This document shows positions 4,502 to 51,684 of a stretch of DNA of 51,684 nucleotides, in pieces. The notes beneath the pieces were generated by a model. That model was not told the DNA's origin. It searched no databases and saw only the letters and a program-made list of their open reading frames with translations. Position 1 is the stretch's first letter. Every line of letters begins with the position of its first letter. The stretch lies in contig JAMXLK010000079.1 of the NCBI GenBank assembly GCA_024281075.1, positions 1 to 51,684 on the forward strand. Reading direction: 5' to 3'. A program made the translations under genes and the position numbers. The stretch is from Vulcanimicrobiia bacterium (GTDB taxonomy: Bacteria; Vulcanimicrobiota; Vulcanimicrobiia; Vulcanimicrobiales; Vulcanimicrobiaceae).

Positions 4502-4891
4502 CTATAAAGGACTGCCGAACCACCAATGATGTCCTTCGATATCACGCGCGCCGTAGTCGTACATTCCGTACGGCTGGGCTGCCGGCTTGCTGTCGATGTC
4601 CGCTCCACCTGCTCGAGCACGTTCAAAGTGAGCATCGACGTCGTCCACTTGCACGTACGTGCCTCCGCTTACACCCGGCAGTGCACGGGGAGAAAACAGC
4701 TCGTGGCTGGGGGACACGCGATGCAGCCAAATCACGGCATCACCTGCCCGGACCTCCGCGTGCACGGCAATGCCTTGGTCATTTCGTTCGATGCCGCCCG
4801 ACGAAAATCCGAAAGCCTCGACTAGAAAGTCATGCGCCTCCGGTATGTTCTCGTACACCAGAAGAGTTATCAGTCGATTGATGGCCGGCAC
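4502..4891 (-). CDS. VOC (glyoxalase/bleomycin-resistance-like) family protein
   Basis: About 129 residues with the VOC beta-alpha-beta-beta-beta signature: an opening strand LITLLVYENIPEAHDFLVEAFGF, a central GGTYVQVDDVDAHFERARAGGADI, and the closing strand YGARDIEGHHWWF. The ending is typical of the PhnB/glyoxalase-like subgroup often linked to small-molecule modification. The start is taken as GTG 4891 because AAGGAGAAGG precedes it closely; the open frame extends to 4945, but that extension lacks family-like sequence and contains one copy of a 19-bp repeat. It converges on the exported-protein gene with one base between stops. Confidence 0.85.
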   Translation of the reverse strand: MPAINRLITLLVYENIPEAHDFLVEAFGFSSGGIERNDQGIAVHAEVRAGDAVIWLHRVSPSHELFSPRALPGVSGGTYVQVDDVDAHFERARAGGADIDSKPAAQPYGMYDYGARDIEGHHWWFGSPL

Positions 4892-4915
4892 GTCCTTCTC
4901 CTTATGTTCCAAGTT

Positions 4916-4934
4916 GCAGTAATGCGGCGCCTCG
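4916..4934 (+). repeat. 19-bp direct repeat, copy 1
   Basis: These 19 bases (GCAGTAATGCGGCGCCTCG) recur exactly at 5116-5134, 200 bases downstream. This copy is in the leader of the VOC gene and lacks the left half that makes the second copy a hairpin. Confidence 0.8.
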
Positions 4935-4958
4935 CTTCCTTGCATGCATTTTGCCCCG

Positions 4959-5001
4959 TCCTTCGACTCCGTTCGCTTCGCTCACTTCGCTCAGGATGAC
5001 A
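4959..5001 (+). repeat. dispersed CTTCGAC...GCTCAGGATGACA repeat
   Basis: An imperfect palindromic sequence starting TCCTTCGACTC, with internal TTCGCT/ACTTCGCT units, and ending GCTCAGGATGACA. Its ends match those of the 26-base repeat inside two lipoprotein genes (25292-25317 and 38323-38348). Sequences of this kind are widely dispersed between genes in several bacterial groups. It lies between the two 19-bp direct repeats. Confidence 0.6.
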
Positions 5002-5106
5002 CATTGCGCGTTCGCTCAAGATGCAACGGAACCAAAGCCCGTTGCGAAGTCGCTTGAGATGTGGTATCGTCGCCAACGTATCAGGTCGTCGACACATCGA
5101 AACGCA

Positions 5107-5134
5107 CGAGGCGCCGCAGTAATGCGGCGCCTCG
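5107..5134 (-). terminator. hairpin downstream of rlmN, probable terminator
   Basis: A perfect 12-bp stem (CGAGGCGCCGCA / TGCGGCGCCTCG) closes a GTAA loop. It sits 18 bases past the rlmN stop on the minus strand. The following T-tract is weak, so termination is likely but not certain. Its right half (5116-5134) is the second copy of the 19-bp direct repeat seen at 4916-4934. Confidence 0.55.
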
Positions 5135-5151
5135 TTACTCTTAGTGGCGCT

Positions 5152-6243
5152 TCACGATGACACGGTAGCGTGATGCGCCTTCGGCTGTGTCTCTGCCTGT
5201 AATTGGCCGCAGGCGGCGGCGATGTCGCGCCCCATATTCTGTCGCACGGTAACCGGCACTCCCGCCGCATCCAGAATGGCGGCGAAATCCCAAATGCGCG
5301 CGTTATCGGTTGCGGCATACGGGCCGTCCGGCGTCGTGTTATATGGGATGAGGTTCACGTGGTAGAGCCGCCCAGTCATAAGCGCGGCCAGTTCGCGCGC
5401 GCACTCGTCGGCATCGTTGATGCCGGCAAGCATGACGTACTCAAAGAAAACCTTGCGATTCGTCTTTTGAACGTGGCGTTCGCAGGCGGCCATCAGCTCG
5501 GCGAGCGGAAAGCGGCGGTTGACCGGCATCAGCCTAGACCGCAGCTCGTCGTTGGGCGCATGGAGCGAGATCGCGAGATTCACCTGCACGCGTTCGTCGG
5601 AAAAGCGGTCGATCTTATCGACGAGGCCCACGGTCGAAATCGTAATGTGCCGGTGGCCGAGCCCGAAGCCGGTCGGATCGTTCAATAGTGCGACGGCATC
5701 CATCACCGCCTCGTAGTTATGAAACGGCTCGCCCATCCCCATGAACACGACGTTCGTAATGCGCTTCTTCCGGCCGGCAAGCGTCCGTGCGAAAAAAAGC
5801 GCTTGTTCGAAGATTTCGGCGGCAGTCAGATTGCGATTGAACCCGCCTTGCCCCGTCGCACAGAAGGCGCACGCGAAGGCACAACCGGCTTGGGACGAGA
5901 TGCAGACGGTCGTCCTATCGCCGTAATGCTCCATCAGCACGGCCTCGACTTCTTTGCCGTCGCGCAGCCGGAAGAGTCCCTTTGTCGTCTGCTCGTCCCG
6001 CGATCGTTGCAGAGCGATCGACTCGAGCGACGAAAACGCGATCCCGCGAACCGTCAGCGCCGATCGCAGCTCCTTGGGAAGCGTCGTTACGTCTGCGGGG
6101 CTGCTCAGCAGCTCTTTAGTCGCGGCATGGTAGAGCTGGCGCAACCGGTACGGCTTGAGATCGTATTCGGCAACGAACTCGGCGACGTCGCCAAAACGTG
6201 CGCGCGTTACGACGTCGCGCAACCAAACGTCGATGGGATTCAA
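5152..6243 (-). CDS. rlmN: dual-specificity 23S rRNA A2503 / tRNA A37 C2-methyltransferase RlmN
   Basis: A radical-SAM methyltransferase for A2503 of 23S rRNA and A37 of some tRNAs. The CxxxCxxC cluster is C121, C125 and C128 (CAFACAFC). The two catalytic cysteines expected in RlmN are C114, seven residues before the cluster as in E. coli, and C345 (AACGQL) near the C-terminus. VVFMGMGEPFHNYEAV and ISTVGL are also present. Length of 363 residues is normal. ATG 6243 overlaps the udg stop as ATGA, placing it last in a ybjQ-udg-rlmN operon. The paralogue Cfr is less likely given this context. Confidence 0.96.
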   Translation of the reverse strand: MNPIDVWLRDVVTRARFGDVAEFVAEYDLKPYRLRQLYHAATKELLSSPADVTTLPKELRSALTVRGIAFSSLESIALQRSRDEQTTKGLFRLRDGKEVEAVLMEHYGDRTTVCISSQAGCAFACAFCATGQGGFNRNLTAAEIFEQALFFARTLAGRKKRITNVVFMGMGEPFHNYEAVMDAVALLNDPTGFGLGHRHITISTVGLVDKIDRFSDERVQVNLAISLHAPNDELRSRLMPVNRRFPLAELMAACERHVQKTNRKVFFEYVMLAGINDADECARELAALMTGRLYHVNLIPYNTTPDGPYAATDNARIWDFAAILDAAGVPVTVRQNMGRDIAAACGQLQAETQPKAHHATVSS

Positions 6244-6902
6244 AAGAGACTCGCTTGCGTAATCTCGATTGCCGGTTCCGGAACCGGCGGCTCGTCGAGT
6301 TTGGCCCGCACCGCTTTAAGATCGGCCCAGACGAGACGCTTCACGGCGCCGATCTCGCCGCCGGTTTGCCGGAGAATGTACGCCGGATGAAACGTCACCA
6401 TCAGCGGCGTATCGCGCGGCCCAATATACCACTGCCCCCGCATGCGCGTGATCTGAAAATCGCGTCCCAAGAACGACTTCGCGGCGGGAGCGCCCAGCGC
6501 AAGAATTATCTGCGGCGCGATGATTTCGATCTGTTCGTCCAGGAACGGCCGGCAGTTTTCCATCTCGTCGGCATCGGGAGCGCGATTACGCGGACCATTC
6601 GGACCCTGCAGCGTCGGCCGGCATTTGACCGTATTGCAAATGTAGACGTCGCCGCGCGGAAGACCGATGGCCGCGAGCATCCGATCGAGCAGCTGGCCCG
6701 CCTTGCCGACAAATGGCCGGCCGAGTTGATCTTCGGTTTCGCCCGGTCCCTCGCCGACAACCATCAGCCGCGCGCACGGATCTCCCTCGCCGTAAACGTT
6801 GTTGCGCCGTTCGTAACCGATCGTGCACTTTCGGCACGCGGCAGCGGCAATCGAGGCTTGCGCGAGAAGCTCTGCCCGGCGCGCTCGCTCGTCGCGATCC
6901 AC
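6240..6902 (-). CDS. udg: family 4 uracil-DNA glycosylase (Fe-S type)
   Basis: Removes uracil from DNA. Family 4 motifs are GEGPGETED (residues 50-58) and FHPAYILR with catalytic-loop His172. Candidate 4Fe-4S ligands are C23 and C26 (CRKC), C94 (VKCRP) and C117. Spacing between the last two is a little long because of a Gly/Pro/Asn-rich insertion (LQGPNGPRNRAP). The product is 220 residues, close to the thermophilic UDGa size. It lies two bases after ybjQ and overlaps rlmN by four, so the three genes are surely cotranscribed. The symbol is the generic one for this family. Confidence 0.93.
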   Translation of the reverse strand: MDRDERARRAELLAQASIAAAACRKCTIGYERRNNVYGEGDPCARLMVVGEGPGETEDQLGRPFVGKAGQLLDRMLAAIGLPRGDVYICNTVKCRPTLQGPNGPRNRAPDADEMENCRPFLDEQIEIIAPQIILALGAPAAKSFLGRDFQITRMRGQWYIGPRDTPLMVTFHPAYILRQTGGEIGAVKRLVWADLKAVRAKLDEPPVPEPAIEITQASLF

Positions 6903-9631: not shown

Positions 9632-10447
9632 CTACGGAACGGCGTGAACGCGAATCGGTCTATCGAAACCCTTGAGTGAGACCTCGCCCAGATCTCGGAA
9701 TGCCAAGCATTTTCCGATACAGAGTTCGGCGACGGCGTTAGAGACGAGCGTCTGCTGCGGATCCGCATGCGAACAGAGGCGGGCCGCTAAATGCACCGTT
9801 GAGCCGAACAGGTCATGGTTGGCTTCGACGGGCTCGCCTGCGGCGGCGCCGATCCGGATCATGAGCGACCCATCGCTGCATGCCTCCGCAATGCTCGCAT
9901 GAATTTGAATTGCACAGCGCACCGCAGCGGCGGCCGAGACGAACGCAGCCATGATGCCATCGCCGGTGTGCTTGACTTCGCGCCCGCCTGTGGCAGCCAG
10001 CGCATTGCGGACCGCCGCGTCGTGCTGCTGAAAGAGGCCGACGCAGGCATCGTCCCCCAATCGTCCCATTAGGGACGTTGAATCCACGATGTCGGTAAAC
10101 AGCACCGTTCGTGTGCCGCAATCACGCTCGCCGAGCTTCGTACCGGGCGTCAGCGCCGCTCCACCGGGATCGACCTCGCAGCCGCCCAGAAAATTCTCGG
10201 CAAGCTCCGGCGCCACTTCGATGATCTTTTGCGCGACCATCCCATGCGCTATGCGATGTACCGTAACTGCGGCCTCAGCATCGGGCGCGGTACATAAACA
10301 ATAGATTTTACCTTGAGCTTCGTTGAGCCAATACTTGTGATACTCGACGCCGTACTCGCCTTGCACTCTGACGTCGGCCATGTGCACGGATGCCACTGCT
10401 TCGGGGGTCGCGCCCGGCGAATCGTGAATGTCCATGAACATCGGCAT
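9632..10447 (-). CDS. DUF4242 (SCO4226-like) domain fused to class III nucleotidyl cyclase
   Basis: 271 residues. Residues 1-90 match the ferredoxin-like DUF4242/SCO4226 domain (MDIHDSPGATPEAVASVHM, HKYWLNEAQGKIYCL). Residues 112-271 are a class III adenylate/guanylate cyclase domain: metal aspartates D119 (LFTDIVDST) and D163 (HTGDGIMA), substrate-specifying K159 and D212, and R223 (AARL). The transition-state Asn of VNxAAR is His here (H219, STVHLAARL), so turnover may be low or altered. The protein is cytosolic with no membrane segment. Gaps to neighbours are three bases on each side. It could be a cyclase or a non-catalytic sensor. Confidence 0.88.
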   Translation of the reverse strand: MPMFMDIHDSPGATPEAVASVHMADVRVQGEYGVEYHKYWLNEAQGKIYCLCTAPDAEAAVTVHRIAHGMVAQKIIEVAPELAENFLGGCEVDPGGAALTPGTKLGERDCGTRTVLFTDIVDSTSLMGRLGDDACVGLFQQHDAAVRNALAATGGREVKHTGDGIMAAFVSAAAAVRCAIQIHASIAEACSDGSLMIRIGAAAGEPVEANHDLFGSTVHLAARLCSHADPQQTLVSNAVAELCIGKCLAFRDLGEVSLKGFDRPIRVHAVP

Positions 10448-10450
10448 CGC

Positions 10451-10951
10451 CTAGGTTCTTTCGATAGAAATCTGCGGCGGACGCGCGAGCGTTTGATAGA
10501 CGACGCAATAGCGCTCGGTGAGGCGCAGCAGCGTATCGAGCCGCTCTTGCGGCTCGTCGGTATCCAATTCAAAACGGACACGGATTTGCGAGAACCCCAC
10601 TGGCGCGGATTTTTCGACGCCGAGCGTTCCACGAAAATCGAGATCGCCTTCGACTTTCACGGCGCCCGTGCGCAACTCCATCTCCAGCGCGGTCGCAACC
10701 GCGGCGAGCGTCACGCCGGCGCACGCGGCCAAGGCCTCCAAGAGCATATCGCCTGAACACGCAGCCGTTCCGTCGCCGCCCGTCATCGGGTGCAAGCCGG
10801 CTGCCACTAATGCTTTGGCGGTCGAGACGTTACACGTGACGCCTTCGCCGACTCGCCCCTCGGCTCGCAGCGTTATGCACGCGCTCTCCGGCGAAGAGCG
10901 ATAGCGCTCCTTGAGCGGGGCTTGCAGTGCGCGAAGCTCATCGGTTTTCAT
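10451..10951 (-). CDS. OsmC/Ohr family protein
   Basis: A thiol peroxidase-like protein of 166 residues, expected to reduce organic peroxides. The two cysteines typical of the family are C77 (EALAACAGVTLAA) and the later ERYCVVYQTL cysteine. A DLDFRGTLGV strand and an SQIRVRFELDTDEP strand separate them. Start ATG 10951 lies eight bases after the prfB stop; the open frame extends upstream into prfB but that part is not family-like. Whether it is the OsmC, Ohr or YhfA type cannot be settled here. Confidence 0.9.
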   Translation of the reverse strand: MKTDELRALQAPLKERYRSSPESACITLRAEGRVGEGVTCNVSTAKALVAAGLHPMTGGDGTAACSGDMLLEALAACAGVTLAAVATALEMELRTGAVKVEGDLDFRGTLGVEKSAPVGFSQIRVRFELDTDEPQERLDTLLRLTERYCVVYQTLARPPQISIERT

Positions 10952-10959
10952 ACGCAAGG

Positions 10960-12082
10960 TTACGCCCGCTTCGGCGCCGACGAAAGCGGCTCCCGTTGCT
11001 GCAAATACGGCCAAACGAACGTATCGATGGCGCCGTCGAGCACTTCCGAAACGTTTCCCGTTTCGACGCCGGTGCGGTGGTCCTTGATGAGTTGGTACGG
11101 CTGCAGCACGTAGGAGCGAATCTGCGATCCCCATTCGTTCGCTTGCCGCTCGCCGCGCAGATCCGAAAGCTTCCGATCCCGTTCCTCTGCCGCGCGCACC
11201 GCGAGTCTCGCGCGCAGAATGTTGAGCGCGACCTCGCGGTTCTGCGCTTGCGACCGTTCTTGCTGCGAAGCGACGACGATGCCCGTCGGCACGTGAACGA
11301 CGCGCACCGCCGATTCCGTCTTATTAACGTACTGGCCGCCCGCGCCGCCCGATTTGAACGTTTCGATTCGCAAATCATCGGGCTTGATCTCGACGTCGAG
11401 ATGCTCGCCCGCCTCGACCTCGGGAATCACGTCGACCGCCGCAAAAGACGTGTGCCGGCGGTGCGCCGCGTCGAACGGCGAGAGTCGCACGAGCCGGTGC
11501 ACGCCGCGCTCGCTCTGGAGCAAACCGTACGCGTTTCGTCCACGCACGAAAAACGTTATCGACTTCAGTCCGGCCTCTTCCGCGGCCGATTCGTCGACGA
11601 TCTGAGTGCTGAATCCCTTTGCTTCCGCCCAGCGCAAGTACATGCGCGCGAGCATCGCCGCCCAATCGGCAGCATCGACTCCGCCTGCACCGGCAAAGAT
11701 GCTGACGATGGCATTGCGCGCGTCGAACTCGCCGCTGAAGCTCGCCGCCATCTCGAGGCCTTCCAACGATGCTGCCGCGGTGTCGATCGCGCGTTGCGCT
11801 TCAGCCTCGGCGGCCGAGTCGCCGGGAAAGAGCTCGAGCAGTTCGCGCGCCTCTTTGATGCCGCGAGCGACGGCGTCGGAAGACGCCGTCTCGTCACGCA
11901 GCTCGGCGAGCTCCTTCATCACGCGTTGGGCCGCTTCGGGATCGCTCCAAAAGTCTTGCGAGCGGGAACGCTCGTCGAGTTCGGCTATGCGGCGGCGTTT
12001 GCGTGAGTCGTCAAAGACGCTCCTTGAGGGCCGACAAGCGTTCCTCCAGGCGCGAGAGCTGCGTTAGTTGCGATTCGCTCAT
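10960..12082 (-). CDS. prfB: peptide chain release factor 2, +1 programmed frameshift
   Basis: RF2 terminates translation at UGA and UAA. The gene is read as 12082-12014 joined to 12012-10960, giving 373 residues (E. coli RF2 has 365). The first 23 codons end in CTT followed by in-frame TGA (12013-12011) and then C. An SD-like AAGGAG precedes CTT by three bases, the E. coli spacing. After a +1 shift the frame reads DDSRKRRRIAELDERS, QDFWSDPEAAQRV and onward. SPF (about 201-203) and GGQ (about 248-250) sit where expected. The shift autoregulates RF2 through slow UGA decoding. First gene of the operon running to DUF2079. Confidence 0.96.
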
Positions 12083-12175
12083 CGCGCGTCGACTTTTTCG
12101 GCGACGCCGCGACTCCCTTGTCGGCGCGCTCGTTCGTCGTGATACGAAGCGCAGCTATTACGACGGAGGTAGACC

Positions 12176-13159
12176 ATGTACGTTCAGCCGCTCGACGGCT
12201 CGATCAACGCCAACTCTCTGGCATCGCTTGCGAACACCGGAACCGAAGGCTCCGTGTTCGCGGGCGCCATGCCCGCCGCCGCGGGCGACGATATCTCGCG
12301 CTTCGTGCCGCCGTGGTCGAACGAAAGCGGCGAAGGCGCATACGGTAATGCATACTCCAACCCGAGTTCTTTGCAGGGCGTCTTCGGATCGCTCATGGGG
12401 ATGCTGCAACAGCTCATGGGCGTGCTGCAGTCACTCATGGGAAGCGGCTGCAACGCTCCCTACGGCCTAACCGGCGGCCCGCAGTACGCGTCGGCCAACT
12501 GTCCGCCGAACGGGCCGGGAAGCTGTCCGCCCTATCGCAACGAGCGCTACTTTCAAAATGCGACGGGCTCGAGCGACGGCGATCCGCACTTGTCGTTTAA
12601 CGGCGCCCGCTGGAACAATATGACGTCCCAGCCTGATTTGCTCAACTCCAACTCCTTTGCGGGCGGCTTTCAAATCTCGACGCAAGCCACGCCGCAGAAC
12701 GGGAAAGGCGTTTCTTGGAACCAATCGGCAACGGTCTCGCTGAACGACGGCTCGACGAAGATCAGCATGAATAACGATGGACATGCGACGATTGAAAACA
12801 ACGGCCAATCCGTTGCGATCCAAAAAGGCCAGACGCTGCAGCTCGGCAACGGTGAATCGGTCACGTACGAACAAAACGGCTCGCTCCGGGTCAACGCCGT
12901 AAACCAGAATGGCGGGCGCATTGAAACGACGCTCACGCCCGATGGCAAGGGCGTGAACGTGGACGTCAGCGCGCACGACGTCGATCTCGGCGGGACGTTG
13001 GTCAACGGTTGGGAAGAACGGCGCGAAGGCCGGGAACCCGCCGGACCATGGGGCGCGCCGTGGCCGATTCGTGATCCGATTGGGGGACCCAACTGGCCGC
13101 CGCCCGCGCCCTATCCACACCTTCCCAATCCACGCATTCCGACTCCGCTCGGCAACTAG
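12176..13159 (+). CDS. GDPH-motif protein, DUF1521/MIIA-like
   Basis: 327 residues without a classical signal peptide. Residues 65-90 are a Leu/Met-rich helix (LMGMLQQLMGVLQSLMG), followed by a Cys/Pro/Gly-rich linker. From residue 131 comes SSDGDPHLSFNG with GDPH at 135-138, then about 130 residues of beta strands (SATVSLNDGSTKISMNNDG, NGESVTYEQNGSL, VDVSAHDVDLGGTLV) and a Pro/Trp-rich tail. GD-PH followed by a hydrophobic strand is the cleavage site of metal-induced self-cleaving DUF1521 domains (NopE1) and of vWF-D domains. GGAGG six bases upstream sets ATG 12176. Secretion and self-cleavage are inferred. Confidence 0.72.
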   Translation: MYVQPLDGSINANSLASLANTGTEGSVFAGAMPAAAGDDISRFVPPWSNESGEGAYGNAYSNPSSLQGVFGSLMGMLQQLMGVLQSLMGSGCNAPYGLTGGPQYASANCPPNGPGSCPPYRNERYFQNATGSSDGDPHLSFNGARWNNMTSQPDLLNSNSFAGGFQISTQATPQNGKGVSWNQSATVSLNDGSTKISMNNDGHATIENNGQSVAIQKGQTLQLGNGESVTYEQNGSLRVNAVNQNGGRIETTLTPDGKGVNVDVSAHDVDLGGTLVNGWEERREGREPAGPWGAPWPIRDPIGGPNWPPPAPYPHLPNPRIPTPLGN

Positions 13160-13172
13160 GAGCCTAAAGCAC

Positions 13173-13200
13173 GAGCGCGCGGCAACGAGGCCGCGCGCTC
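13173..13200. terminator. intrinsic terminator after the GDPH protein
   Basis: An 11-bp perfect stem (GAGCGCGCGGC / GCCGCGCGCTC) with a six-base loop is followed by TTCTTGT on the plus strand. It lies between convergent genes and may serve both. Confidence 0.7.
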
Positions 13201-13224
13201 TTCTTGTATTGAAACGCCGTGATG

Positions 13225-14247
13225 CTATTTCTTAACGAGCGGTATTGACGCGATGCCGCGCGGATCGGGGATGCCGCTGATGGTTGAGAACGGCGACGTC
13301 GCGCCTTTTTTATAGCCGCTGACGACACCGTTTTGGTTCGATTGGAAGAAGTAGTCTGACTTCGTGACGCCGTTGAGCGTTGGACCGTTCTGTTCGATTC
13401 CAGCAGTAATCGTGTAGGCCGGCGTTGTGCTGCCGTAGTTATAGACCTGCACGTTCGAGCCGCCGAAATTGGAGACGAACATCATGTCTTTCTTGCCGAA
13501 CGTGATCATGATGGGGCCGTTCGTTCCGGAGAGGCCGGCATTTTGCGGCGTCGTGGAGCCCGCCGGGATCTCAAAGACCGTTGACGTATCGCAGGCAACC
13601 CAAACGTTGTCGGCGGCGTCGGTATCCATGCCTAAAGCCTGACCGTATGCGCTGAACGAGATCGTTTCGTACGGCGTGCTTTGGCCGGCGTGATACGCGA
13701 CGACGGTATTCGTGTCGAGATTGCTGGCAAAGACGTTGCCTTGCGAGTCGACCGCGATGCCATATGGCCCGGCGACGCCATTGGTAATCGTCATACTGGG
13801 CGTCGTCGCACCTTTCGGGTAGATCGTGATCGAGCCATAATTATTATTGCCGCCTAGTAAATTGGCGGCATAGAGGGTGCCGCTCTTATCCACGGCCAGG
13901 CCGAAGACGTAGTCGATTCCGCTGGTTATCGAGCCTTCGGGACTGGGGTTCGCTTTTTTGGGATTGTAGAGCAGTATTTGATTATTTTGAGGATCGGCGA
14001 CGAAGAGCACTTGCGCTTTCTTCGGCACCCGATGTACGAGCGGCCACGGACGCGGAACGAGCGGTACGGCGTACGGACCCTCGACGGCGGCGCCGTGTAC
14101 GTAACGGAACCCGCCTGTCTGATGCGTTGAGGGCATCATTGACGACGTCTGTCCCGGGCTCAGGTTCCCTTGGTTGCCGGAACAAGCCGCAAAGAAAACG
14201 ACGGCCGCGGCTCCGATCAGCACGCGGCGCGATGGCATTTCGAGCAT
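13225..14247 (-). CDS. beta-propeller-like (NHL/SMP-30-type) lipoprotein
   Basis: About 340 residues. A signal peptide (VLIGAAAVVFFAAC) ends in a lipobox, so the protein is a lipid-anchored exported protein. The mature part repeats a propeller blade pattern: QVLFVADPQNNQILLYN, GLAVDKSGTLYAANLLGG, GIAVDSQGNVFASNLDTN, GMDTDAADNVWVACDTST. Alternating YNYGSTTPAYTITAG and YKKGATSPFSTISG segments fall between blades. The ligand is unknown. GGAGGT five bases before ATG 14247 decides the start over the longer frame to 14346. Confidence 0.85.
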   Translation of the reverse strand: MLEMPSRRVLIGAAAVVFFAACSGNQGNLSPGQTSSMMPSTHQTGGFRYVHGAAVEGPYAVPLVPRPWPLVHRVPKKAQVLFVADPQNNQILLYNPKKANPSPEGSITSGIDYVFGLAVDKSGTLYAANLLGGNNNYGSITIYPKGATTPSMTITNGVAGPYGIAVDSQGNVFASNLDTNTVVAYHAGQSTPYETISFSAYGQALGMDTDAADNVWVACDTSTVFEIPAGSTTPQNAGLSGTNGPIMITFGKKDMMFVSNFGGSNVQVYNYGSTTPAYTITAGIEQNGPTLNGVTKSDYFFQSNQNGVVSGYKKGATSPFSTISGIPDPRGIASIPLVKK

Positions 14248-15546: not shown

Positions 15547-16491
15547 ATGCACAGACCCTCGCGATTTACAGCAGCGGTTCTAAGCGCTTTTGCGGCGTTC
15601 GCCGTGGCCGGCTGCGCGACGAATGGCGGCGTCACTCCGGTGACGCCGCAGCAGCAGCCGCAGGCTCGAGTTCCTTCCGGCCCTGGATGGGTCGAAAAGG
15701 ATGGCGTGCTCTACCACGTACCGCATTACATGGTGACCCGCAACTCGGCAGTCAAACCGCTCACGATCTCCCTCAACTACTACGGCGGCCCCGTTCAGAC
15801 GACGCCGGCGGTCTACATCATCTTCTGGGGATACCAAACGTACGGCGACCGTAACGGCGTGCAAAGTCTGTTGACGACCTACATGAGCAACATGGGCGGG
15901 AGCGGACATAACAATATCTACACGCAGTATTATCAGACGTCCGGCGGTACGACGACCTACATCACGAATCCGTCGAACCAGGTTCTCGGAACGTGGAACG
16001 ATCAGACGAATAAGGTGCCGCTGCATCCTACCGATTCGCAAGTAGCGGCCGAAGCGCTGCGAGGCGTTACTCACTTTGGCTACAACGGCAACGCTTCGTA
16101 CATCGTTGCGACGCCGCACGGACGCAGCACGAGCGGCTTCCGCACGCAATGGTGCGCCTATCACAGCAACACGTTCACGAACGGCAAGTTAGTATCGTAC
16201 ACCAACCTGCCGTATATACCCGACGCCGGCGCATCCTGCGGCTCGAACATCATTTCGCCGCCTGGGGACGAAAGCGGCGCCGATGAAGGCGTGACGATCG
16301 TCGGCGGACACGAACAAGGCGAATCCGTCACCGACCCGCAGCCGAACACCGGCTGGGACAATACGTCCTACGGCGAAATCGGCGACATTTGCGCGTGGAC
16401 GAATATCCAGAACGACCCGTTCGGAAGCTACTCGTACACGAGCCAGCCGATGTTCAGCAACGCAACGCATTCCTGCGTGCATTCCTACTAA
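15547..16491 (+). CDS. lipoprotein with HE motif, remotely EXORDIUM-like, copy 2
   Basis: 314 residues with lipobox AVAGC. It is collinear with the gene at 14416: VYIIFWGYQTYGD, HPTDSQVAAEALR, HFGYNGNASYIVATPHG, WCAYHSNTF, NLPYIPDAGASCG, DEGVTIVGGHEQGESVTDP, YGEIGDICAW. H, E, S and TDP of the HE motif are kept while HEYAE becomes HEQGE. Its leader shares a CCCCCCT-x-GCTACT...AAAGAGGTT block with copy 1, so the duplication included regulatory DNA. AGAGG is ten bases before ATG. Confidence 0.82.
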   Translation: MHRPSRFTAAVLSAFAAFAVAGCATNGGVTPVTPQQQPQARVPSGPGWVEKDGVLYHVPHYMVTRNSAVKPLTISLNYYGGPVQTTPAVYIIFWGYQTYGDRNGVQSLLTTYMSNMGGSGHNNIYTQYYQTSGGTTTYITNPSNQVLGTWNDQTNKVPLHPTDSQVAAEALRGVTHFGYNGNASYIVATPHGRSTSGFRTQWCAYHSNTFTNGKLVSYTNLPYIPDAGASCGSNIISPPGDESGADEGVTIVGGHEQGESVTDPQPNTGWDNTSYGEIGDICAWTNIQNDPFGSYSYTSQPMFSNATHSCVHSY

Positions 16492-16514: not shown

Positions 16515-16546
16515 AAGAAGGCCGCTCCGCACGGAGCGGCCTTCTT
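16515..16546 (+). terminator. strong hairpin terminator after HE-motif copy 2
   Basis: A perfect 15-bp stem (AAGAAGGCCGCTCCG / CGGAGCGGCCTTCTT) closes on two bases, CA. The right arm ends in CTTCTT and CTC follows. Confidence 0.75.
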
Positions 16547-48016: not shown

Positions 48017-48108
48017 GGTCATTCCTCCTGATCTGATGAAATGGCTTACGAAGCTACCGCAATGCTGTTACTTTCTTGGAAATACCTCTCGCGCGTGTAG
48101 ATTCGCCG

Positions 48109-48160
48109 CGCGCGAGGCCGCATTGCGCCAGCGAATTAGCGGTAGCCTCGCAGCACTAGG
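48109..48160 (+). repeat. solo copy of the inverted-repeat arm signature
   Basis: Contains CGCGAGGCCGCATTGCG at 48111, TTAGCGG at 48136 and CTCGCAGC at 48147. The first two blocks are 25 bases apart start to start, exactly as in both arms of the element at 51214-51684. It lies in the 258-base gap 48017-48274 before the GH18-like gene. Confidence 0.7.
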
Positions 48161-49656: not shown

Positions 49657-49899
49657 GTGGGCCGTGGAGGTGCAAGGTCGACACGCTTTTGTGGAAAGAC
49701 GGCTTCGAACAGATCGGCGGCTTTTAGCCCGAGCAGCAAACGCAAACGCGGCTACGCATCCGAGGCGCGTGTAAAGCGCGGTGACCGCGTCGTCCGCGGA
49801 TTCAAAGAGCTGCAGGAGAAGCTCGGCCGGAACGATCCATGCCCGTGCGGCTCCCGACGGCGGTTTCAAGCGGTGCTGTATGCTTACGGGCCAATATGA
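49657..49899 (+). pseudogene. SEC-C zinc-motif gene fragment with frameshift
   Basis: The frame ends SEARVKRGDRVVRGFKELQ, EKLGRNDPCPCGS, which is the start of a SEC-C motif (CxCGSGxxFKxCC). After GS the frame drifts, but the next frame reads GGFKRCCMLTG, the missing CC half. One extra T near 49863 and a Gly-to-Arg change in GSG explain this. The upstream part is disrupted as well. It is either a decayed gene or an assembly error; the 5' end is not identifiable. Confidence 0.5.
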
Positions 49900-50012: not shown

Positions 50013-51158
50013 ATGTTGGACCGCGCAAACCTGGTTACGCTTACGTTTCTAAGCATCGCTGCGCTCGCTTTCGTAAGGTGCGCCCCCACGCAAACCGGAC
50101 CGCCAGTCACACCGAGTGCTCAATCGCAAATTCCGAGCCGCACAACCGTCCACGCGGCAGCAACGACGTCCACGCAATACTCGATTAAGGATCTTGGTGC
50201 TGTAGCGGGCTATTCCGAAAGCCAGGTCGGGCAAGGTACGATCACCGCCGGCGAGGGACTCAACAATCTCGGCCAAGCGGCCGGCTCGTCGTGGAATCCA
50301 GGCGCCGACCCTACCGCAACACTCTTCGACAACGGCACGGCGACTAATATCAACACGATCAAAGCCACCGCCTCGATGGCTACTGCGATCAACGATTCGG
50401 GGCAAGTCGTCGGGCAGGAGACGCGGTCAAATGACAAGTGTGGCTGTTGGCACGCGTTTCTCTATAGTAACGGTGCGATGACCAATATCGAGAACACTGC
50501 TATTTTCCCCAACGGCAGCGAGGCGTACGGGATCAACAAGTCCGGGCAAGTAGTCGGAGTGGGATTCCTCGATCCTAACGACGTCTCGTACCACGCGTTT
50601 CTCTATAGCGGCGGGCAGATGACCGATCTGAATCCGTTTAATGCATCGCAATCACTTGCCGTATCGATCAATGACTCAGGACAGATTATCGGCTCGTCGT
50701 CGGCCACTAATTCGACGCCCGCCGCGGCAACGTGGCTGTACTCCAACGGCACGTTCACGAACCTTTCCACGACAAATAGCGGCGCCTATATCAACAACAA
50801 TGGACAGATAGCCGGCCATAGCACGAGCACGAAGCACGCCGTGTTGTATAGCAACGGAACGTGGACCGATCTCGGCACGCTTCCCGGTACCACCAGCTCG
50901 GTGGCTAATAGTGTTAACCTCTCCGGGCACGTGGTCGGCTCCGCAACCTTTCCGGCGACCTATCATCCATTTAAATCGCCCCGGCCTGTCGCGATCGTCT
51001 TTACCAGCAGCGGACCGGTCGACCTAAACACGCTGATTCCAACGAATTCTGGATTCACGCTAACCTCCGCTCAAGCGATCAACAATTCCGGGCAGATTGC
51101 ATGCGACGCGAAGACCAGTACCGGCACGCCGCACGCGGTTCTCCTCACGCCGATGTAA
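50013..51158 (+). CDS. HAF-repeat extracellular protein
   Basis: 381 residues with an N-terminal signal (LVTLTFLSIAALAFVRC); the LAFVRC end is a weak lipobox. The mature part holds about seven HAF-type repeats: AINDSGQVVGQ, HAFLYSNGAMTNI, GINKSGQVVGVG, HAFLYSGGQMTDL, SINDSGQIIGSS, HAVLYSNGTWTDLGTLPG, and AINNSGQIACD with HAVLLTPM at the end. HAF repeats give a propeller-like exported protein. GGAGG six bases before ATG 50013. Confidence 0.88.
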   Translation: MLDRANLVTLTFLSIAALAFVRCAPTQTGPPVTPSAQSQIPSRTTVHAAATTSTQYSIKDLGAVAGYSESQVGQGTITAGEGLNNLGQAAGSSWNPGADPTATLFDNGTATNINTIKATASMATAINDSGQVVGQETRSNDKCGCWHAFLYSNGAMTNIENTAIFPNGSEAYGINKSGQVVGVGFLDPNDVSYHAFLYSGGQMTDLNPFNASQSLAVSINDSGQIIGSSSATNSTPAAATWLYSNGTFTNLSTTNSGAYINNNGQIAGHSTSTKHAVLYSNGTWTDLGTLPGTTSSVANSVNLSGHVVGSATFPATYHPFKSPRPVAIVFTSSGPVDLNTLIPTNSGFTLTSAQAINNSGQIACDAKTSTGTPHAVLLTPM

Positions 51159-51213
51159 AGCGCGGCGTGGCCCGAAGATCAGGCCGGCGAGGAGGCGTTG
51201 AAGGTTTAGCCCC

Positions 51214-51684
51214 CCGCGCTCGCGAGGCCGCATCGCGTTAGGGGCTTAGCGGCGTAGAGTCTCGCAGCTGCGCAGCCCAGCGCTGATCGTAACGCGTTAA
51301 ACGCCTCGCATTAATGCCTCGCAGCGCCTCGCAGCTTAAATCATTGCGCGAGGAGCTCAGCCGCCATGGGGGGCGGCATTTCAGATGGGCCTAACTCCTA
51401 TGCCCTGAAGCAGCGCCGCGGGATAGGAGTTGGACCCCTAAAATTGTGCACCCCCTCGGAGCCCGGCTGAGCTGCAAGGTTTCGCAGAGCGCACGATCCG
51501 AGCTGCCGACGCGTTAAGCGCCGCGATCTAAGCGCCGAGCCTCCAGAACTAAGTGCGAGGCAATGCGAGGCGCTGCGAGCGTAACTGCGAGGCTGCAATA
51601 CGGCGCGCGATCGGCGCCGGGCTGCGCAGCTGCGAGGCTTCTAGGCTGCTAATCCCCTAACGCGATGCGGCCTCGCGAGCGTGG
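51214..51684. repeat. ~470-bp imperfect inverted-repeat element (MITE-like), touching window end
   Basis: The outer 31 bases (51214-51244) match the reverse complement of 51654-51684 at 30 of 31 positions. Further in, CTCGCAGCTGCGCAGCCC (51261-51278) pairs perfectly with 51619-51636. Repeated GCCTCGCA words on the left (about 51303-51333) face TGCGAGGC words on the right (about 51554-51593). The centre AACTCCTAT / ATAGGAGTT (about 51392 and 51423) closes a long hairpin. No plausible coding frame lies inside. The 55 bases between the HAF gene and the element hold nothing recognisable. Confidence 0.85.

Follow-up and report, generated by a model that had tools for sequence, protein, structure and literature searches.

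A palindrome at a contig end of a Vulcanimicrobiia bacterium as a probable junction of two tandem casposons downstream of secA

The window analysed here is the entire contig C79 (51,684 nucleotides) of a Vulcanimicrobiia bacterium MAG of 2.47 Mb (164 contigs, 86.5% complete). Its last 471 bases form a large imperfect inverted repeat, which raises the question of what kind of element ends the contig. Casposons are transposons that use a Cas1 related to the enzyme that builds CRISPR memory, and the machinery of CRISPR adaptation has been proposed to derive from them. As described below, the repeat is very probably a junction at which two casposons, inserted in tandem, meet within an array growing at the 3' end of secA.

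Structure of the repeat at the window end

Positions 51214-51258 pair with 51640-51684 (45 nt, 91%), and 51258-51289 pair with 51608-51639 (32 nt, 91%). The whole 471 bp aligned with its own reverse complement at 65% over 491 columns (E 2e-42). The predicted RNA fold had an energy of -319.7 kcal/mol, compared with -212.1 (sd 6.0) for shuffled sequences (z = -18). With up to three mismatches, the 21-mer of the tip matched the window three times (48111, 51221 and 51657 on the minus strand), where 0.01 matches were expected. The inverted repeat is therefore real and far above chance. The sequence-only reading had described these bases as self-folding, with 31-nt tips alike at 30 of 31 positions and a perfect 18-nt inner block (51261-51278 with 51619-51636), and all of this was confirmed, the tips by direct reading. 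Its proposal of one repeat family also held. Rfam and tRNA scans of the window gave no match, and Pfam assigned most flanking genes to unknown families. A short palindrome of 32 bp (94% self-complementary) was also seen at 16515-16546.

The features of the junction are listed in Table 1. The tips of the palindrome are the inner, cargo-side ends of the terminal inverted repeats (TIRs) of two adjacent elements. The central AACTCCTAT/ATAGGAGTT, earlier taken for the closure of a loop, is instead a pair of outer transposon ends that flank a 14-nt spacer. Read in the sense of secA (minus strand), the centre runs from ...CCAACTCCTATCCC, the end of TIR B, through the spacer GCGGCGCTGCTTCA into GGGCATAGGAGTTAGG..., the start of TIR A. 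The two TIRs were 82% identical over 122 bp, and their outermost parts differed. The spacer measures exactly 14 nt between CCC and GGG, like the target-site duplications (TSDs) of the relatives G002, G083, G020 and G094. It matched the secA end of G004 at 11 of 14 positions (chance 0.0008 over the ends of 19 relatives). The assembly does not reach the 3' end of this genome's secA, as contig C129 stops inside the gene. The genes of the window are collinear, in inverted order, with 2297 to 2247 kb of the near-complete relative G010, and the right end of the window thus faces secA.

Table 1. Features of the window junction and of one complete element in a relative
Feature	Position	Strand	Details
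TIR of left-hand casposon A	51214..51405	-	192 bp; arms HMM match 51198-51454, E 5e-40
Outer end of TIR A, GGGCATAGGAGTTAGG	51405	-	inner end (left tip) at 51214
Presumed 14-bp target-site duplication, GCGGCGCTGCTTCA in secA sense	51406..51419	-	degenerate copy of a secA 3' end
TIR of right-hand casposon B	51420..51684	+	265 bp to contig end; arms HMM match 51682-51384, E 2e-52
Outer end of TIR B, GGGATAGGAGTTGGACCCC	51420	+	inner end (right tip) at 51684
Truncated, decayed inner-end fragment of a third TIR	48107..48160	+	81% over 36 nt to 51217-51252
DUF3466/HAF-repeat lipoprotein gene beside TIR A	50013..51158	+	PF11949, E 7e-11
Element of G094 (contig C118), adjoining secA	between TSDs at 15,920 and 1,227		PolB 10019-13444, HTH partner, Cas1 4804-6447

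Because the contig stops at 51684, the right edge of the repeat is also the end of the assembly, and it coincides with the boundary between TIR and cargo. An assembler would be expected to stop at this inner boundary if the two TIRs of element B were near-identical. The inner end of TIR A lies 56 nt past the stop codon of the lipoprotein gene, which is possibly casposon cargo. The match at 48109-48160 had been called a solo copy. It does belong to the family, but it is a fragment of an inner TIR end and not a full copy, with two mismatches in the tip 21-mer and a score below E 1e-3 with the arms HMM. Since it is oriented like TIR A, it would be a truncated remnant rather than the other end of A.

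No casposon protein remnants were detected in the window at E <= 0.01, and neither Cas1 nor PolB (the family-B DNA polymerase described below) was found in the MAG, which is 86.5% complete. The earlier remark that no transposase is present thus holds within the window; the casposase lies outside it, in the elements of relatives. The two elements at the window end would at one time have encoded such an enzyme or relied on one.

A small ORF at 49657-49899, 1.3 kb from the junction, carries a SEC-C-type motif (GRNDPCPCGSRRRF) and does not resemble a copied secA end. Lipoprotein genes with GTVYSITPSGxEKVLHSF-type or similar repeats and a common signal-peptide style cluster near the array, both at 41-51 kb of the window and at 2244-2265 kb of G010.

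Copies, target duplications and enzymes in related genomes

A search for further copies gave family matches in 17 of 60 related genomes. The tip pattern with at most three mismatches was found in 14 of the 18 genomes of the genus, where single matches with three mismatches were no better than a reversed-pattern control; the exact core pattern was confined to G000 and G010. Among named genomes, the exact tip 21-mer occurred at five loci, all in Candidatus Eremiobacterota. Viral contigs contained neither the tip nor a relative of Cas1-solo or PolB. Every clear copy in G010 lay at 2244-2260 kb, within 16 kb directly after secA, and a 400-kb scan around this region gave these copies and one weak match. 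A related sequence starting with GGG(n)ATAG follows secA in nearly all genus genomes with an assembled secA 3' flank, and several contigs break at this point. The TIRs of relatives are about 190-380 bp long, and most copies begin with GGG(n)ATA. As judged with a simple gene finder, the tips mostly stand right after stop codons, in the sense of the gene and usually in convergent gaps.

The TSDs of the relatives are 14 bp long and are exact copies of the last codons and stop of the genome's own secA. In G002, the central spacer GAGCCGCAGCGTAAG is that genome's own secA end, and exact 14-mers recur 16,375, 23,959 and 32,627 nt downstream of secA, the third followed by GGAG, so that four TSD copies stand in a row. 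Exact copies were also found downstream of secA in G083 (+7,319), G020 (+8,683 and +13,421) and G094 (+14,679). In all four genomes, CCC stands directly before each copy and GG or GGG directly after it. Since the secA ends of these genomes differ, each copy matches its own genome. G014 has the same 14-mer as G002, with one copy carrying a single mismatch. At a tolerance of three mismatches, shuffled targets were matched about as often as the real ones, and we therefore used only exact, flanked copies and the G014 copy. Target duplications are thus perfect at the insertion sites of G002, G083, G020 and G094 and degenerate in the window. In other genera, 16 of 24 secA genes lacked a TIR and were separated by 3-94 nt from the predicted gene that follows, as in empty sites; a TIR-like start was seen at 5 of the 24, with longer gaps or a contig end there.

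We compared the ends of the cassettes between these duplications. G094 has a complete element of 14.7 kb directly after secA (Table 1). Its TIRs are 98.4% identical over 378 bp, its TSDs are perfect, and it carries both PolB and Cas1. In G002, the ends of the cassette between the second and third TSDs were 89% identical over 237 bp, though 7.6 kb apart, and those of the cassette adjoining secA were 75% identical over 191 bp; the G083 TIRs were 75% identical over 322 bp. Across the TSD, the G002 junction at about 21.87 kb of C20 joins two arms of different TIR types (best match 16 bp, E 1.2), and the other G002 junction with clear TIRs matched over 45 bp (E 2e-5). Since ends in G002 match within a cassette and not across the TSD, each matching pair makes up the TIRs of one element, and a palindrome forms around a TSD where two elements meet. 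Some likeness across the TSD was found at the G094 and G083 junctions (83% over 226 and 48 bp); there and in the window, the neighbours are of the same TIR type. The ends of the third G002 cassette and of the secA-proximal G020 cassette did not match; for the former, this points to decay or a different element.

The Cas1 proteins of the G002 cassettes (553 and 537 aa) matched PF01867 with E 4e-38 and 6e-33. In a profile search against the PDB, the best match was the Methanosarcina mazei casposase (6OPM, E 2e-37), followed by CRISPR Cas1 (4N06, 6e-36). The solo Cas1 has a HADQRNRDSLALDAMEPVRP motif and keeps the Cas1 E, H and D/E positions in the alignment; in addition, it has a CxxC...CxxC segment (Zn-ribbon) and a C-terminal HTH-like tail. 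In the Cas1 tree, the solo clade stood apart from the CRISPR references (100/99), and with a single casposase reference on a long branch the tree cannot place it among casposon families. No other cas families were found among the scanned neighbours of the cassette Cas1. In the recurrent neighbourhood, Cas1 is accompanied by an HTH partner, by several small ORFs and by a protein about 1000-1140 aa long. This protein carries the exonuclease motifs DTET, NxxFD and YxxxD, followed in the order of polymerase motifs A, B and C by DFLSMYPT, KVLANSGAYG and YCDTDS. Four of eight such proteins gave weak matches to Pfam DNA_pol_B_2 (best 5e-4, below the cut-off), and the PDB matches were family-B polymerases, also weak. 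The protein is a divergent family-B DNA polymerase (PolB). In both G094 and G002, it lies between the same TSDs as Cas1. Further cassette genes, among the matches listed, encode Mrr-type restriction enzymes and an N6/N4 methylase. No HNH nuclease, which is reported in casposon families 2 and 3, was found in the best 25 of 60 Pfam families for 50 cassette proteins.

Cas1-solo or its remnants shared a contig with secA in nine genomes (G002, G004, G014, G016, G020, G029, G083, G084 and G094), and in all nine they lay on the 3' side of the gene. Among 149 genomes of the phylum, Cas1-solo matches above 50% identity fell within the window's own family. The elements of the relatives thus have a solo Cas1, PolB, TIRs and a TSD of about 14-15 bp, and they are inserted where a conserved gene ends on its 3' side; by these features they are casposons.

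Other explanations of the palindrome

The mobile element that the sequence-only reading had considered stands, but not as a single non-autonomous unit with its tips outward. That form was rejected because each TIR has its partner at the other end of the cassette rather than on the other side of the spacer: the repeat is a junction of two elements with the outer ends at the centre. A bidirectional terminator or 3'-UTR repeat, suggested by the tips following stop codons, was superseded by the TSDs and Cas1. The same placement, following the sense of the gene and chiefly in convergent gaps, together with a mosaic of short palindromic words, would fit REP/BIME-like extragenic palindromes placed by a RAYT between convergent genes and acting on mRNA ends or gyrase. 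This is very improbable, because the copies are few and regional rather than dispersed (all clear G010 copies are in one 16-kb region), the ends pair across multi-kilobase cassettes that contain Cas1 and PolB, and the spacers copy the genome's own secA end. The convergent setting would follow from cargo genes pointing at the TIRs. The other earlier suggestion, a large structured RNA whose transcript would span the entire palindrome, draws on the very stable predicted fold, but it is not supported: at the two G002 junctions with clear TIRs, the arms on either side of the spacer show little or no complementarity, ends 7.6 kb apart within a cassette show it strongly, and no Rfam family matches the window. 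We give it hardly any weight.

An integron-like cassette array with attC-type sites would likewise consist of gene cassettes parted by palindromic sites and anchored at one place, and GTTAGG-like words do occur in the palindrome. However, the matches listed for the scanned cassette proteins included neither an integron integrase nor any other tyrosine recombinase, the cassettes measure 4.7-16 kb with mixed gene orientation, and their ends are true TIRs with perfect 14-bp duplications, so that this origin is extremely unlikely. The window palindrome might instead be a scar in which the two TIRs of one casposon were joined by loss of the cargo, with no tandem junction. The window has no casposon genes, and its arms (82% over 122 bp) are closer than the across-TSD pairs in G002. 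Against this, loss of the cargo would leave inner ends facing each other, whereas the outer ends face across a TSD-sized spacer, and the two TIRs are unlike in their outermost parts. A scar is thus a very small probability beside a tandem junction.

Proposed insertion and comparison with known systems

The catalysis and the order of insertion are inferred from the casposon literature and fitted to the anatomy described above. The casposase (Cas1-solo with its C-terminal HTH) would bind an element, once excised, at its long palindromic TIRs and join the element ends across a 14-bp target formed by the last 11 nt of secA and its stop codon. Gap repair would copy the 14 bp, so that secA stays whole and a fresh target arises beyond the insert. 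Further rounds of insertion at the target would give secA-TSD-[TIR...genes...TIR]-TSD-[TIR...genes...TIR]-TSD, in which each internal TSD would be flanked by two facing TIRs, the palindrome of the window.

Published casposons have TIRs of 25-602 bp, TSDs with a median of 15 and PolB in all cases, target the 3' end of aEF-2 or tRNA genes, and occur in bacteria as family 3 (PMC4046053). The present elements resemble families 1-4 (PMC4046053, PMC9966878) in Cas1-solo, PolB, TIRs, TSD and insertion at the 3' end of a conserved gene. They differ in host (Eremiobacterota), in target (secA rather than aEF-2, tRNA or intergenic sites), in a PolB that Pfam recognises weakly, in that no HNH was seen in the best 25 of 60 Pfam families, and in arrays with up to four TSD copies (G002). 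MetMaz-C1 of Methanosarcina mazei has 14-bp TSDs, a casposase with a C-terminal HTH and ends TATATCCC, i.e. GGGATATA inward (PMC6977970), and its TIR GGGATATAGGTAACTC... and tandem insertion in vivo have also been described (PMC10359463). The 14-bp TSD and C-terminal HTH are shared with the present elements (PMC6977970, PMC10359463), the TIR starts are alike (GGGATATAGG there, GGGATAGG or GGGCATAGG here), and tandem insertion into the own TSD, observed there in vivo, is here read from genomes. The TIRs of MetMaz-C1 are 31 bp, whereas those here are palindromic and about 190-380 bp, and its target is tRNA-Leu or intergenic instead of secA. In CRISPR arrays (Cas1-Cas2), a Cas1 likewise inserts units in tandem at a single anchored site and the target is duplicated, but the units here are whole multi-kilobase transposons, the repeat is 14 bp, and no Cas2 was found among the scanned cassette proteins. 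A search of open-access journal papers found nothing joining casposons with Eremiobacterota or Vulcanimicrobiota, nothing joining cas1-solo with secA, and no natural casposon tandem arrays of this kind.

These results describe a group of casposons from a bacterial phylum about which little is known. Their target is protein-coding, their ends are large and palindromic, and they form tandem arrays in nature. A duplicated target recurring up to four times gives a layout like a proto-CRISPR array, and insertion polarity, decay and host tolerance (the duplication includes the stop codon) can be tested by genome comparison. Since assemblies break at such TIR pairs, MAGs probably show fewer of these arrays than exist. 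In G002, both PolB and Cas1 are present in the cassette nearest secA, Cas1 without PolB in the second, and fragments only in further ones, as if newer elements lay nearer secA. TIR likeness argues the opposite, since the proximal TIRs (75%) are less alike than those of the second cassette (89%). Polarised growth, with new elements always entering the secA-proximal target, is a tentative idea that we consider rather doubtful; if true, it would be a living, transposon-sized analogue of CRISPR array growth with Cas1 and without Cas2.

Several minor observations were made around secA and Cas1. A third sequence type, (GGGATA)GATACCGTATTTCGCGTCAAGCGTAATTCGC, follows secA in L074 and L078 (the secA ends of G013 and G005) and also stands at the fourth TSD of G002 (C20, about 5.6 kb); it is perhaps another casposon type. 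A group II intron reverse transcriptase/maturase (RVT_1, GIIM) adjoins a casposon TIR in G014 (C40, L065:612-1937). A second Cas1-solo group, 32-39% identical, was found at G029:C6:292815 and 308165, G065:C6:378147, G035:C3:3436, G001:C48 and G002:C18:21752, the last with a PolB-like gene beside it. In G016 (C74, L117 at about 2782-2930), an insert of about 130 bp with GTCATCCTGAGCGGAGTCGAGG-type repeats closes secA early, and a copy of the original secA end and then a TIR follow 3' of the insert.
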